DNA of 64,000 nt from Blastocatellia bacterium (GTDB lineage: Bacteria; Acidobacteriota; Blastocatellia; Chloracidobacteriales; Chloracidobacteriaceae). Below, one piece after another: positions 60,427 to 64,000 of the stretch. Made by a program: the position numbers and the translations under genes. The first letter of the stretch is position 1; each line of letters opens with the position of its first letter. Under the pieces are notes generated by a model. It was not told where the DNA came from. It searched no databases and saw nothing but the letters and a program-made list of their open reading frames with translations. The stretch lies in NCBI GenBank assembly GCA_019695185.1, contig JAIBAN010000006.1, positions 62,001 to 126,000 of the forward strand, written 5' to 3'.

Positions 60427-61376
60427 TCAGCAAAAACCACTTGGGGCCGGGCAACGGCTTGGGCCGCATCAAAGCGCGCAATGCCCAGTAGTTCCCCTGC
60501 CTCGTCACAAACTGCCAGGAACGGCTGATTGGGGGAAAGGTCGGAAACATCAGTTTCGGCTGGTACCGGAATCGGCTGACCATACCGGAACCTCAATTGC
60601 ACTTCCGCATCCACCTGAAACCGGGGCCAATCAGGCAATAGCTCAACCGGTTTGAGAATACACTCCTCTGTTCCCATAATTGCCATCAAATCAGCAACAT
60701 GTTGAATTGTCACGGCTTGTTCAAGCGAAAACGGTCCAATCCGGGTCCGTCGCAGGGCCGTTAAATGTGCGCCACAACCGAGTTTCTCCCCTAAGTCATG
60801 GGCCAGGGTGCGAATATAGGTTCCTGCCGAACAGGAGACCTTGACGAGAGCTTCCGGAAAACCACGCTCTCCGCTACGGAGGAGTTTCCCTTCTTCGGTG
60901 GGAACAATTTCAAGGGAATGAATCTGAATCGGAACTGCTGCCCGAAAGACGACCTGTCCCTGCCGCGCCAGCTTATGAAGGGAAATTCCCTCCAGTTTTT
61001 TGGCCGAAAACATGGGGGGAATCTGTTGTTGCAATCCCAGGAAGGTTTGCAGGGTCGTTTGGACCTGTTCCTCGGTCAGGTCTTCCGGCATTTTGGGCAG
61101 AGTGATGGGCGAACCAGTGTAATCCTGAGTGGTGGTGGCATATCCAAACCGAATCGTGGCTTCATAGGATTTGTCCTTGCCGGTCAGGAATTGTGACAGG
61201 CGGGTGCAATGGCCCAGGCAAATCAACAGCAACCCGGTGGCAAACGGATCCAGTGTGCCGGTATGGCCGATTCGCTTGTTGCGCAGGATGTGGCGCAACC
61301 GGGCTACCACATCATGCGAGGTCATGCCAATCGGTTTATCAATCAGAAGTCCGCCGTGGAGAGGAAGTTTCAGCAT
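60423..61376 (-). CDS. truB: tRNA pseudouridine-55 synthase TruB
   Basis: 317 residues. GLLIDKPIGMTSHDVVARLRH, the catalytic aspartate in GHTGTLDPFATGLLL, the YEATIRFGYATTTQD segment and SCSAGTYIRTLAHDLGEKL are typical. It isomerises U55 in tRNA. A C-terminal PUA-like domain (about 250-310) is present. Its stop overlaps the response regulator end. Its start codon lies just before the intergenic region holding the bufferin promoter. Confidence 0.93.
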   Translation of the reverse strand: MLKLPLHGGLLIDKPIGMTSHDVVARLRHILRNKRIGHTGTLDPFATGLLLICLGHCTRLSQFLTGKDKSYEATIRFGYATTTQDYTGSPITLPKMPEDLTEEQVQTTLQTFLGLQQQIPPMFSAKKLEGISLHKLARQGQVVFRAAVPIQIHSLEIVPTEEGKLLRSGERGFPEALVKVSCSAGTYIRTLAHDLGEKLGCGAHLTALRRTRIGPFSLEQAVTIQHVADLMAIMGTEECILKPVELLPDWPRFQVDAEVQLRFRYGQPIPVPAETDVSDLSPNQPFLAVCDEAGELLGIARFDAAQAVARPQVVFAD

Positions 61377-62082
61377 GGAATATTGAAATTATTTCAGACG
61401 GGGGTGAAATAAAAGTTGCACTTGCCGAATTGTAGCCGCATCACGTCCAACTGAACAAGCCTGATAACTCAAACGAACTATCAAAAAATGAAATTGGCTT
61501 CAGTACGGAAAAGCTCGATTTTTCAAAGACATGCCCCTTTGATGGGGGCTTGGACAGGATAAGCCAGGCAGGTTTTACAAGAAAAAATTTGAAAAAGATG
61601 CGCAAAACACATAGACTGCGGCATCCAAAAAACAACGCATATGCGTATCTGGTGCATCAAGCGCGATATTCCTTCAAAAACAAATACCAGAAAGTTGTAC
61701 GATCACGTGTCCTCCTGTACCAAACCAGGTTTTTTCAGCATGATGAACTGAGCGGGCATTTTCATGTCTGAACCCAGTTTCTGCTCCGGGTTTGTGTCTG
61801 CGGACGTTGCCATTTTTAGATCTTTGCAATCTTTTTAAGTTTTTGCTGTGTGGTCGCTAGGAAGTTTTTCGACCTTGCACAGATAGCGAATTCCACCAGG
61901 CTTTGCCTTGGGGAAACGGGTGGTTGTTCGTCACCCTGAACTACAAAAACGGTTCAAACCCACAGGTTGCATCAGGAGAAGGTGCAGTCGGGAACAACAA
62001 CTTTCGAAACCAAACAATGGATGCGGGTTTTGGGAAACCTTCATCCGACACTTTCACAATCTACACACATAGGGGAATAACT
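61377..62082. other. Intergenic region upstream of the bufferin-type genes
   Basis: 706 bases. A small hairpin GCCCC-N7-GGGGC lies at 61533-61549. 61809-61850 is T-rich and may hold the promoter of the buf genes. Frames of 73 and 60 codons here have no support. No repeat family and no ncRNA was recognised. Confidence 0.5.
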
Positions 62083-62553
62083 ATGAATCGGAGAGAATTT
62101 CTCAACAATTTGATGGGTGCCGCAGTGGCCGGCATGGTGGTTGGTGCTGGTTCTTCAGTGTTTGCGGCTGGCAAAGCCGAATGCAAGAGCAAGTCGAGCT
62201 GCAAAGGCAAGAACGAATGCAAAGGCCATAACGAATGCAAGGGTAAAGGCGGCTGCAAGACCGGCGACGGCGGTTGCAAAGGCAAGAATTCCTGCAAAGG
62301 CAAAGGCGGCTGCAAAACGACTGATTCCAAAGCCGCTGCTCCGGCCAAGCACGAATGCAAAGGAAAGAATGAATGCAAAGGCCAGGGCGGTTGCAAGTCG
62401 GGCGACAAAGGCTGCAAAGGCAAGAACACCTGCAAGGGCAAAGGTGGCTGCAAGTCCGATGCCAAAGCTTCCTGCAAGTCGAAAGACAGCAAGTCTTCCT
62501 GCAAGTCGAAAGACGGCAAATCATCATGCAAAGCTGCTGAAAAGAAGGGCTAG
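62083..62553 (+). CDS. bufA: Bufferin-type RiPP precursor, 17 Cys-Lys pairs, Tat-like leader
   Basis: 156 residues. The leader MNRREFLNNLMGAAVAGMVVGAGSSVFAA has a twin-arginine motif (NRREFL) and a hydrophobic core. The core region from C34 to C149 has 17 cysteines, every one followed by Lys, mostly at six-residue spacing (34, 40, 46, 52, 58, 65, 71, 77, then 92, 98, 104, 111, 117, 123, 131, 140, 149). Motifs such as CKGKNECKG and CKGKGGCK occur in two tandem halves. GGGGA precedes the ATG. The next gene is DUF692, so it is likely the modified, exported copper-binding peptide. Symbol used by similarity to the BufA2 group. Confidence 0.85.
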   Translation: MNRREFLNNLMGAAVAGMVVGAGSSVFAAGKAECKSKSSCKGKNECKGHNECKGKGGCKTGDGGCKGKNSCKGKGGCKTTDSKAAAPAKHECKGKNECKGQGGCKSGDKGCKGKNTCKGKGGCKSDAKASCKSKDSKSSCKSKDGKSSCKAAEKKG

Positions 62554-62714
62554 TTCCTTCTTTTTTGCTTTCATGAGTCGGGAACCGGGGCTTGCCGCCC
62601 TGGTTCTCGGCTATTTTTTTATGGGCTGAATGGTTGTGTTTGTGGCTTTCTTTCAATGAAAACCGCAGATTCCGTTCGTGGGTGCAGGCTTCGAACAAAA
62701 AAGGAAGTTTGGTT

Positions 62715-63575
62715 ATGACGCCGAATCGCTGGAATTTTCCGGACCTGGGTTATGGCATTGGCCTCCGGTCGGTCCACTTTGGTGAGATTCTTGAAACCAA
62801 CCCGCCGATTGATTGGTTTGAAATCATTTCAGAAAATTTTATGGATACCAAAGGGCGTCCGCTTTATGTGCTGGACCAGATTGCCGAACGGTATCCGATT
62901 GTCATGCATGGGGTTTCGCTTTCGATTGGAAGCACCGACCCGTTGGACCTTGAATATCTGCGCAAACTAAAGGAGTTGGCGGCGCGGGTGCGCTCGCCTT
63001 GGGTGTCAGACCACCTGTGCTGGACGGGTGTGCATGGGCAGAATGTGCATGACCTGCTGCCGATGCCGTATAACGAAGAAACCCTGCGCTACACGATTGA
63101 GCGCGTCAAAGCTGTCTCGGAAATTCTGGAGCGACCGTTGGTGATTGAAAACCCATCGTCCTATGTCGAATTTGCCAATTCAACCATGACGGAATGGGAT
63201 TTTCTGGCCCGCTTAGCTGAAGAGTCTGATTGCGGATTGTTGTTTGATGTCAACAATGTGTATGTCAGTTCCTTCAACCACAGTTTTGACCCAAATCTGT
63301 ACATTGACGCCATTCCCCATGACCGGGTCGTGCAATATCATCTGGCCGGACATACCAATAAAGAAACCCACATCATTGATACCCATAACGACCATGTGAT
63401 TGACCAGGTGTGGGAACTGTATCGCCGTTCCTGTGCCCTCAGCGGCGGACGGTCAACCCTGGTTGAATGGGACGACGATATTCCGGATTTGGCGGTGGTT
63501 CATGCCGAAGTGCTGAAAGCCAAGGCACTCCGCTCCCAGACGGCAACGGCAGTGGGAGGTGCGCATGGCGACTAG
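62715..63575 (+). CDS. bufB: DUF692 multinuclear iron oxygenase (BufB/MNIO)
   Basis: 286 residues. TIM-barrel MNIO family, as in MbnB, TglH and BufB. Candidate iron ligands are visible: H65 in VMHGVSL, D99-H100 in VSDHLCW, H112, Glu in VIENPSSYVEF, Asp in LLFDVNNVY, and His in HLAGHTNKE and DTHNDHV. In known systems it converts Cys side chains into oxazolone/thioamide or thiooxazole groups with O2. ATG at 62715 follows AAGGAAG, 161 bases after bufA. It overlaps the next gene by 11 bases. The substrate is very probably the preceding precursor. Confidence 0.9.
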   Translation: MTPNRWNFPDLGYGIGLRSVHFGEILETNPPIDWFEIISENFMDTKGRPLYVLDQIAERYPIVMHGVSLSIGSTDPLDLEYLRKLKELAARVRSPWVSDHLCWTGVHGQNVHDLLPMPYNEETLRYTIERVKAVSEILERPLVIENPSSYVEFANSTMTEWDFLARLAEESDCGLLFDVNNVYVSSFNHSFDPNLYIDAIPHDRVVQYHLAGHTNKETHIIDTHNDHVIDQVWELYRRSCALSGGRSTLVEWDDDIPDLAVVHAEVLKAKALRSQTATAVGGAHGD

Positions 63576-64000
63576 TGTGGCACTCGCAAAAATGCAAAGC
63601 TGGATGCAAACCTATCTGGTTCACTTTGGCACCGAGGAAGAGGCACTTTCTGACGCCAGCCGGGCAGTTGACACATCAGTGGAGGAAGCTGCCCAGTATA
63701 TTTTGCCGACCAAAGACCTGACCGCGATTGACCGGTTGGAAATCTATCGGGTGCAATACCTGATGCGGATGACTGACGCCCTCAAAATTGATTTTTACGG
63801 CATTGTTGATTACCTGGGCGAAGACGATTTCGAGCGGTTGGTTGAACGCTACGTGCAGAAATTCCCATCCCGTAACTACAACCTGGACCGTTTGAGCGAC
63901 CACTTCCCGGAATTTATCCTCCAGGATGAAAAACTGGCCCGGCGTGAGTTTCTGCATGATTTGGCGCGGCTCGAACTGGCTGTGGTTGAGTCATTTGCGG
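63565..64000 (+). CDS. bufC: DUF2063-type partner protein (BufC/HvfC), 3' end beyond window
   Basis: 145 residues visible, open to the right edge. N-terminal DUF2063 pattern: DRLEIYRVQYLMRMTDAL, LGEDDFERLVERYVQKFPSRNYNL, LSDHFPEFIL and LARLELAVVESFA. In HvfC/BufC/MbnC-like proteins this helical part helps recognise the precursor leader and pairs with the MNIO enzyme. ATG at 63565 with GGGAGG upstream overlaps the bufB stop by 11 bases, indicating translational coupling. Confidence 0.85.
   Translation, partial: MATSVALAKMQSWMQTYLVHFGTEEEALSDASRAVDTSVEEAAQYILPTKDLTAIDRLEIYRVQYLMRMTDALKIDFYGIVDYLGEDDFERLVERYVQKFPSRNYNLDRLSDHFPEFILQDEKLARREFLHDLARLELAVVESFA

Follow-up and report, generated by a model that had tools for sequence, protein, structure and literature searches.

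The locus at the end of the window (the whole 64,000-nucleotide stretch of DNA that was analysed) raises the question of what is made from a small gene in which every cysteine is directly followed by lysine, and by which route the product is exported. Bufferins are exported peptides that trap copper and have their cysteines chemically altered by a partner enzyme. The gene, P0003, very probably encodes the precursor of a Buf2-type (Cys-Lys group) bufferin or captophorin as the first gene of a bufABC operon, and its product would be modified and would bind copper after export. The features of the locus are listed in Table 1.

Table 1. Features of the P0003 locus (window positions)
Feature	Position	Strand	Basis
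Shine-Dalgarno-like AGGGGA, 6 nt upstream of ATG	62071..62076	+	sequence
bufA-type precursor gene P0003, 156 aa, 17 Cys, all CK	62083..62553	+	NF050166 BufA2 42.5 bits (cut-off 60), E 5.6e-11
Putative signal/leader peptide MNRREFLNNLMGAAVAGMVVGAGSSVFA: twin-Arg RREF n-region, AAVAGMxxG Buf2 leader motif, A-x-A-like c-region	62083..62166	+	sequence; cleavage site inferred
N-terminal additional CK pair (CKSKSSCK), Cys 34 and 40	62182..62205	+	Cys positions
Buf2 six-Cys domain 1, residues 46-77, CKGHNECKGKGGCKTGDGGCKGKNSCKGKGGC	62218..62313	+	domain comparison
Buf2 six-Cys domain 2, residues 92-123, CKGKNECKGQGGCKSGDKGCKGKNTCKGKGGC	62356..62451	+	domain comparison
Tail repeats CKSKDSKSSCKSKDGKSSCK, Cys 131, 140 and 149, 27-nt tandem unit, SCKSKD-type	62473..62532	+	sequence
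bufB, MNIO maturase, 286 aa	62715..63575	+	NF050167 BufB 361.4 bits (cut-off 310); PF05114 364.6 bits
bufC, DUF2063/RRE partner; start overlaps bufB end, runs past window to L048:2499	63565..64000	+	PF09836 57.5 bits

The precursor gene and its operon

The coding span of P0003 is 62083-62550, with the stop codon extending to 62553. This start was favoured over a TTG start at 61903 because of the Shine-Dalgarno-like AGGGGA in front of it; the longer 216-aa product was rejected on account of that good ribosome-binding site and the absence of a signal at its N-terminus. Cysteines are found at residues 34, 40, 46, 52, 58, 65, 71, 77, 92, 98, 104, 111, 117, 123, 131, 140 and 149, which gives a spacing of 6,6,6,6,7,6,6,15,6,6,7,6,6,8,9,9. 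The sequence-only reading had described every cysteine as CK and most as six residues apart. Both descriptions were borne out: the CK count was 17 of 17, compared to a mean of 4.8 and a maximum of 14 when the mature part was shuffled 100,000 times (simple binomial probability 4e-10 at 28% Lys), and 10 of the 16 gaps were six residues. The "further three" cysteines that it had placed at the end of the chain are, however, the tail residues already counted among the seventeen. All 17 Cys codons are TGC, and the lysine that follows is encoded by AAA nine times and by AAG eight times; since both Lys codons are used, a single DNA repeat unit does not account for the CK rule. Antisense ORFs over the repeats were rejected as mechanical by-products. 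AlphaFold2 predicted a disordered chain with no stable fold (pLDDT 42.7).

P0003 heads an operon in which the MNIO gene and then the DUF2063 partner gene follow directly, an arrangement that matches the bufABC order of described bufferins (PMC12452194). The HvfC model matched the fuller BufC protein with an E value of 9.9e-13. Inspection of the downstream locus revealed no DoxX gene after bufC. This position is often taken by DoxX in other bufferin operons; here a gene for a 611-aa DUF255/DsbH-type thioredoxin-like protein lies directly after bufC on the same strand, just past the window (L048:2739-4574). Upstream, an intergenic stretch of approximately 700 nt (61377-62082) separates the divergent truB gene from bufA, and no Rfam family was matched in 61300-62800.

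Two other MNIO loci were seen in the same genome. At the second locus (L049:4105-6513, G000:C2) the MNIO is preceded by a TIGR04222 membrane protein with (SSCGGG)n at its end, and a small Os1348/NHLP-like protein occupies the partner position after it. After the third MNIO (L050:4477-6438, G000:C12) comes a 293-aa protein whose N-terminal domain is Os1348/NHLP-like, and a precursor was not recognised at that locus.

Buf2 domains, homologues and the lysine-contact residue

The two similar blocks noted from the sequence correspond to a 108-nt direct repeat (62208-62315 and 62346-62453) with 81% nucleotide identity; 20 of its codons are identical, 9 differ synonymously and 6 non-synonymously. Domain comparison showed that each block is a copy of the canonical six-Cys Buf2 domain, with the spacing of 6,6,7,6,6 that is found in the consensus CKGxNxCKGxGGCKTGDNGCKGKNSCKGKGGC, and the proposed growth by duplication was upheld in this form. 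The doubled domains match the published 12-Cys class, which makes up about 10% of Buf2 (PMC12452194), so the six-residue rhythm stems from the Buf2 domain itself. Very recent copying was rejected, as the two domains share 84% amino acid identity with each other compared to 88-97% with domains of the relatives' solo paralogues. Doubled Buf2 domains also were found in other Acidobacteriota families (L120, L121, L123, L126, L134), and the domain, single or doubled, adjoins MNIO genes across Acidobacteriota, Verrucomicrobiota and Planctomycetota.

BufA2 (NF050166) was the best family match of P0003 even though its cut-off was not reached. Clear Buf2 controls also scored under the cut-off (41.2, 38.7 and 34.4 bits, the first and last being canonical six-Cys loci), while a solo relative from the same order passed it (62.5 bits), and the cut-off therefore does not decide the matter.

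The survey of precursors covered genome contigs and 297 genomes of the phylum and yielded dozens of small precursors. An MNIO was present in the same locus for 69 of the 78 non-redundant precursors, and the precursor-MNIO-DUF2063 order recurred in the window's order and across phyla. Five same-order relatives had a P0003-like gene; in four it lay directly before an MNIO that was 72-77% identical, and in the fifth (G012) the contig end cuts the MNIO. In the homologue comparison that the sequence-only reading had proposed, neither a general loss of the CK pairing nor random spacing, which would have refuted the pattern, was seen: the MNIO-adjacent precursors of the order varied in Cys number (6, 6, 9, 16, 17 and 17) but kept the near-regular spacing and had CK at 68 of 71 cysteines. 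In solo paralogues away from MNIO genes CK was found at 43 of 54, a less strict pairing (p = 0.008, not corrected for relatedness). Among these close relatives, with 6 to 17 Cys, the family records a six-Cys metal-binding domain expanding into simple CK repeats.

Two members of the order differ in form. One MNIO-adjacent precursor (L014/L100, G010:C4) consists almost entirely of a (GEKASCK)n array with approximately 14 near-perfect repeats, whose number may vary between strains. In the MNIO-adjacent orthologue L012 (G003:C78), on the reverse strand before the MNIO, the start MKRREFLQ is followed by a stop and the two Buf2 domains lie in another frame; this broken signal represents either real decay or an assembly error.

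The repeat and CK pattern is correct but of a described kind; the precursor itself is long and mosaic. The cysteine count and the CK rule had been put forward as new, but both the Cys-Lys group (PMC12668002) and 6/12-Cys Buf2 (PMC12452194) were already published. MNIOs of the Cys-Lys group have Asp at the position of Phe250 in the Lys-Cys enzyme FonB, and in the published model the substrate Lys contacts this Asp (PMC12668002). The window MNIO has Asp254 at the same site, the Cys-Lys-type signature, and the CK rule is therefore an already described enzyme-substrate match. Of 73 close MNIOs, 52 had Asp at this residue and 14 had Ala. In the solved DUF692 protein 3bww the site is occupied by Phe, in line with the published Lys-Cys MNIOs (PMC12668002); this protein served as the Lys-Cys yardstick in the site comparison because a self-made EGKCG-like query found no match in plasmids and no precursor was found at the Pseudoalteromonas locus.

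Identity and function of the P0003 product

P0003 shares with Buf2 (Buf_6/12Cys, BufA2) bufferins the AAxAGLxxG-type signal motif, the six-Cys domain and the bufABC order, and tandem 12-Cys versions of these are known. Unlike them, it has 17 cysteines that are all CK, whereas canonical Buf2 domains usually end in GGCA, and it carries the extra CK pair, the SCKSKD tail and the twin-Arg n-region. With the Cys-Lys captophorins (PMC12668002) it has in common the Lys after Cys, the Asp of the MNIO and the DUF2063 partner; the difference is that its repeats surround a tandem Buf2 core. The long, many-Cys repeat precursor, the MNIO and DUF2063 genes and the probable use of the signal peptide as leader resemble the Buf_EGKCG or oxazolin (HvfA) type. 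In that family Lys precedes Cys and the published MNIOs have Phe in place of Asp; no EGKCG motif was found in P0003. In the related EGKCG family, long precursors holding as many as 58 Cys are known.

The points counted against Buf2 identity were the BufA2 score below the cut-off, the missing DoxX gene and the lack of a predicted stable fold. By analogy with characterised relatives, the adjacent MNIO is likely to modify the P0003 cysteines serially, as the sequence-only reading had suggested for a single enzyme, and we infer the modification, its chemistry and the copper binding from the same relatives. BufC and BufB would recognise the signal peptide as a leader, and BufB would oxidise the CK cysteines one by one, probably to 5-thiooxazoles, while Asp254 makes contact with the Lys that follows each Cys. 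Once modified, the chain would be exported, lose its signal and bind surplus copper in the periplasm. The array was enlarged as the six-Cys domain was duplicated in tandem and short CK repeats were added, which would provide more metal sites per chain.

It is improbable that P0003 is instead an unmodified, metallothionein-like periplasmic buffer that binds metal through free thiols while the MNIO acts elsewhere. The 17 cysteines, the predicted disorder and the relatives' solo paralogues away from MNIO genes are in keeping with such a buffer, but the recurrent precursor-MNIO-DUF2063 order, the stricter CK pairing next to MNIO genes and the Cys-Lys-type substrate residue of the MNIO all argue against it. 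A bufferin-type RiPP that responds to another metal or stress (zinc, gold, mercury or thiol stress) rather than copper is unlikely, although less so. Other metal roles have been suggested for some bufferins (PMC12452194), and the thioredoxin-like DUF255 gene in place of DoxX would suit a role of this kind; the Buf2-like and thiooxazole peptides described in the literature consulted, in contrast, are linked to copper.

A twin-arginine-like signal

The twin-arginine-like signal was considered the least expected feature of P0003, and it is the part of the precursor that is worth a test. The signal-like segment has a twin-Arg n-region (NRREFLN, resembling S/T-R-R-x-F-L-K), compared to the Sec type of published Buf2. 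Every intact precursor of the window's order begins M[NDK]RR[DE]F, in one case after two extra residues. A motif close to AAxAG[LM]xxG was common to the collected Buf2 signals with an intact N-terminus, whether or not they carried RR. A dual role of the signal peptide as leader has been reported from preliminary data (PMC12452194), from HvfA data (PMC13419390) and by Junger et al. 2026 as far as cited in PMC13419390, and the shared motif fits such a role. What appears to be new, judged from the N-termini, is that in the order's precursors a Tat-like RR[DE]F signal is grafted onto the AAxAGLxxG Buf2 motif. The bufferin landscape paper, which used SignalP 6, described only Sec signals, lipoprotein ones included, and nothing in the open library that was searched reported a bufferin exported by Tat.

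The chances that P0003 is exported by Tat rather than Sec are about even. The N-terminus weakly matched three Tat-related profiles, all below their cut-offs (TIGR01409, 15.3 bits with a cut-off of 16.7; TIGR02811, E = 0.0012; the PetC anchor PF25471, E = 5e-4), whereas the Sec-like controls L068, L072 and L097 matched none of them. It resembles Tat-exported proteins such as Rieske PetC and small formate dehydrogenase-region TAT targets in having RRxF followed by a hydrophobic stretch, but the rest of the protein is unrelated to these. A TatC gene is present in the genome. RRxF was found in 13 of 78 non-redundant precursors, which belong to several lineages and differ in their Arg codons. At least nine cysteines were present in 9 of these 13 compared to 6 of 60 others (relatedness not corrected). 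A scan of the genome itself for MNRR[DE]F returned only P0003 and two unrelated ORFs that lacked a signal-like start, and was uninformative as a control.

These observations have to be set against a reading, given slightly less than an even chance, in which P0003 is equally a Buf2 bufferin but its RR is incidental, the n-region being an NxxDFxK leader motif read by BufC and export proceeding by Sec. Near-RR forms that lack the full twin Arg adjoin MNIO genes in L072 (MNGKDFGK), L114 (MNSRDLAK) and L134 (MNGKDIRK), and Buf2 signals with and without RR were alike in the hydrophobicity of the h-region (p = 0.51). Furthermore, Sec use was shown experimentally for the studied bufferins (PMC12452194). 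The spread of RRxF over lineages and Arg codons, the profile matches absent from the controls and the TatC gene speak against an incidental RR. That an Acidobacteriota bufferin lineage switched from Sec to Tat export, with solo copies as membrane-anchored Tat lipoproteins, is suggested tentatively and falls just short of an even call.

Tat waits for a finished substrate. If this route is used, all 17 cysteines could be modified, and perhaps loaded with metal, before export; such a long precursor of several domains, carrying a twin-arginine signal, would naturally exemplify export that follows completion. Retention of the precursor in the cytoplasm until all cysteines are modified is a stated open problem for bufferins (PMC12452194), and for this lineage the Tat route would answer how long precursors avoid leaving too early.

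Solo Buf2 genes that lie away from MNIO genes were found in same-order relatives (L005, L006, L007, L008 and L009), and none was found in the window's genome. They combine RRDF or RREF with a lipobox (MSGC, MAGC, LTGC or FAGC), which makes them candidate Tat lipoprotein bufferins. One of the five encodes three identical six-Cys domains.
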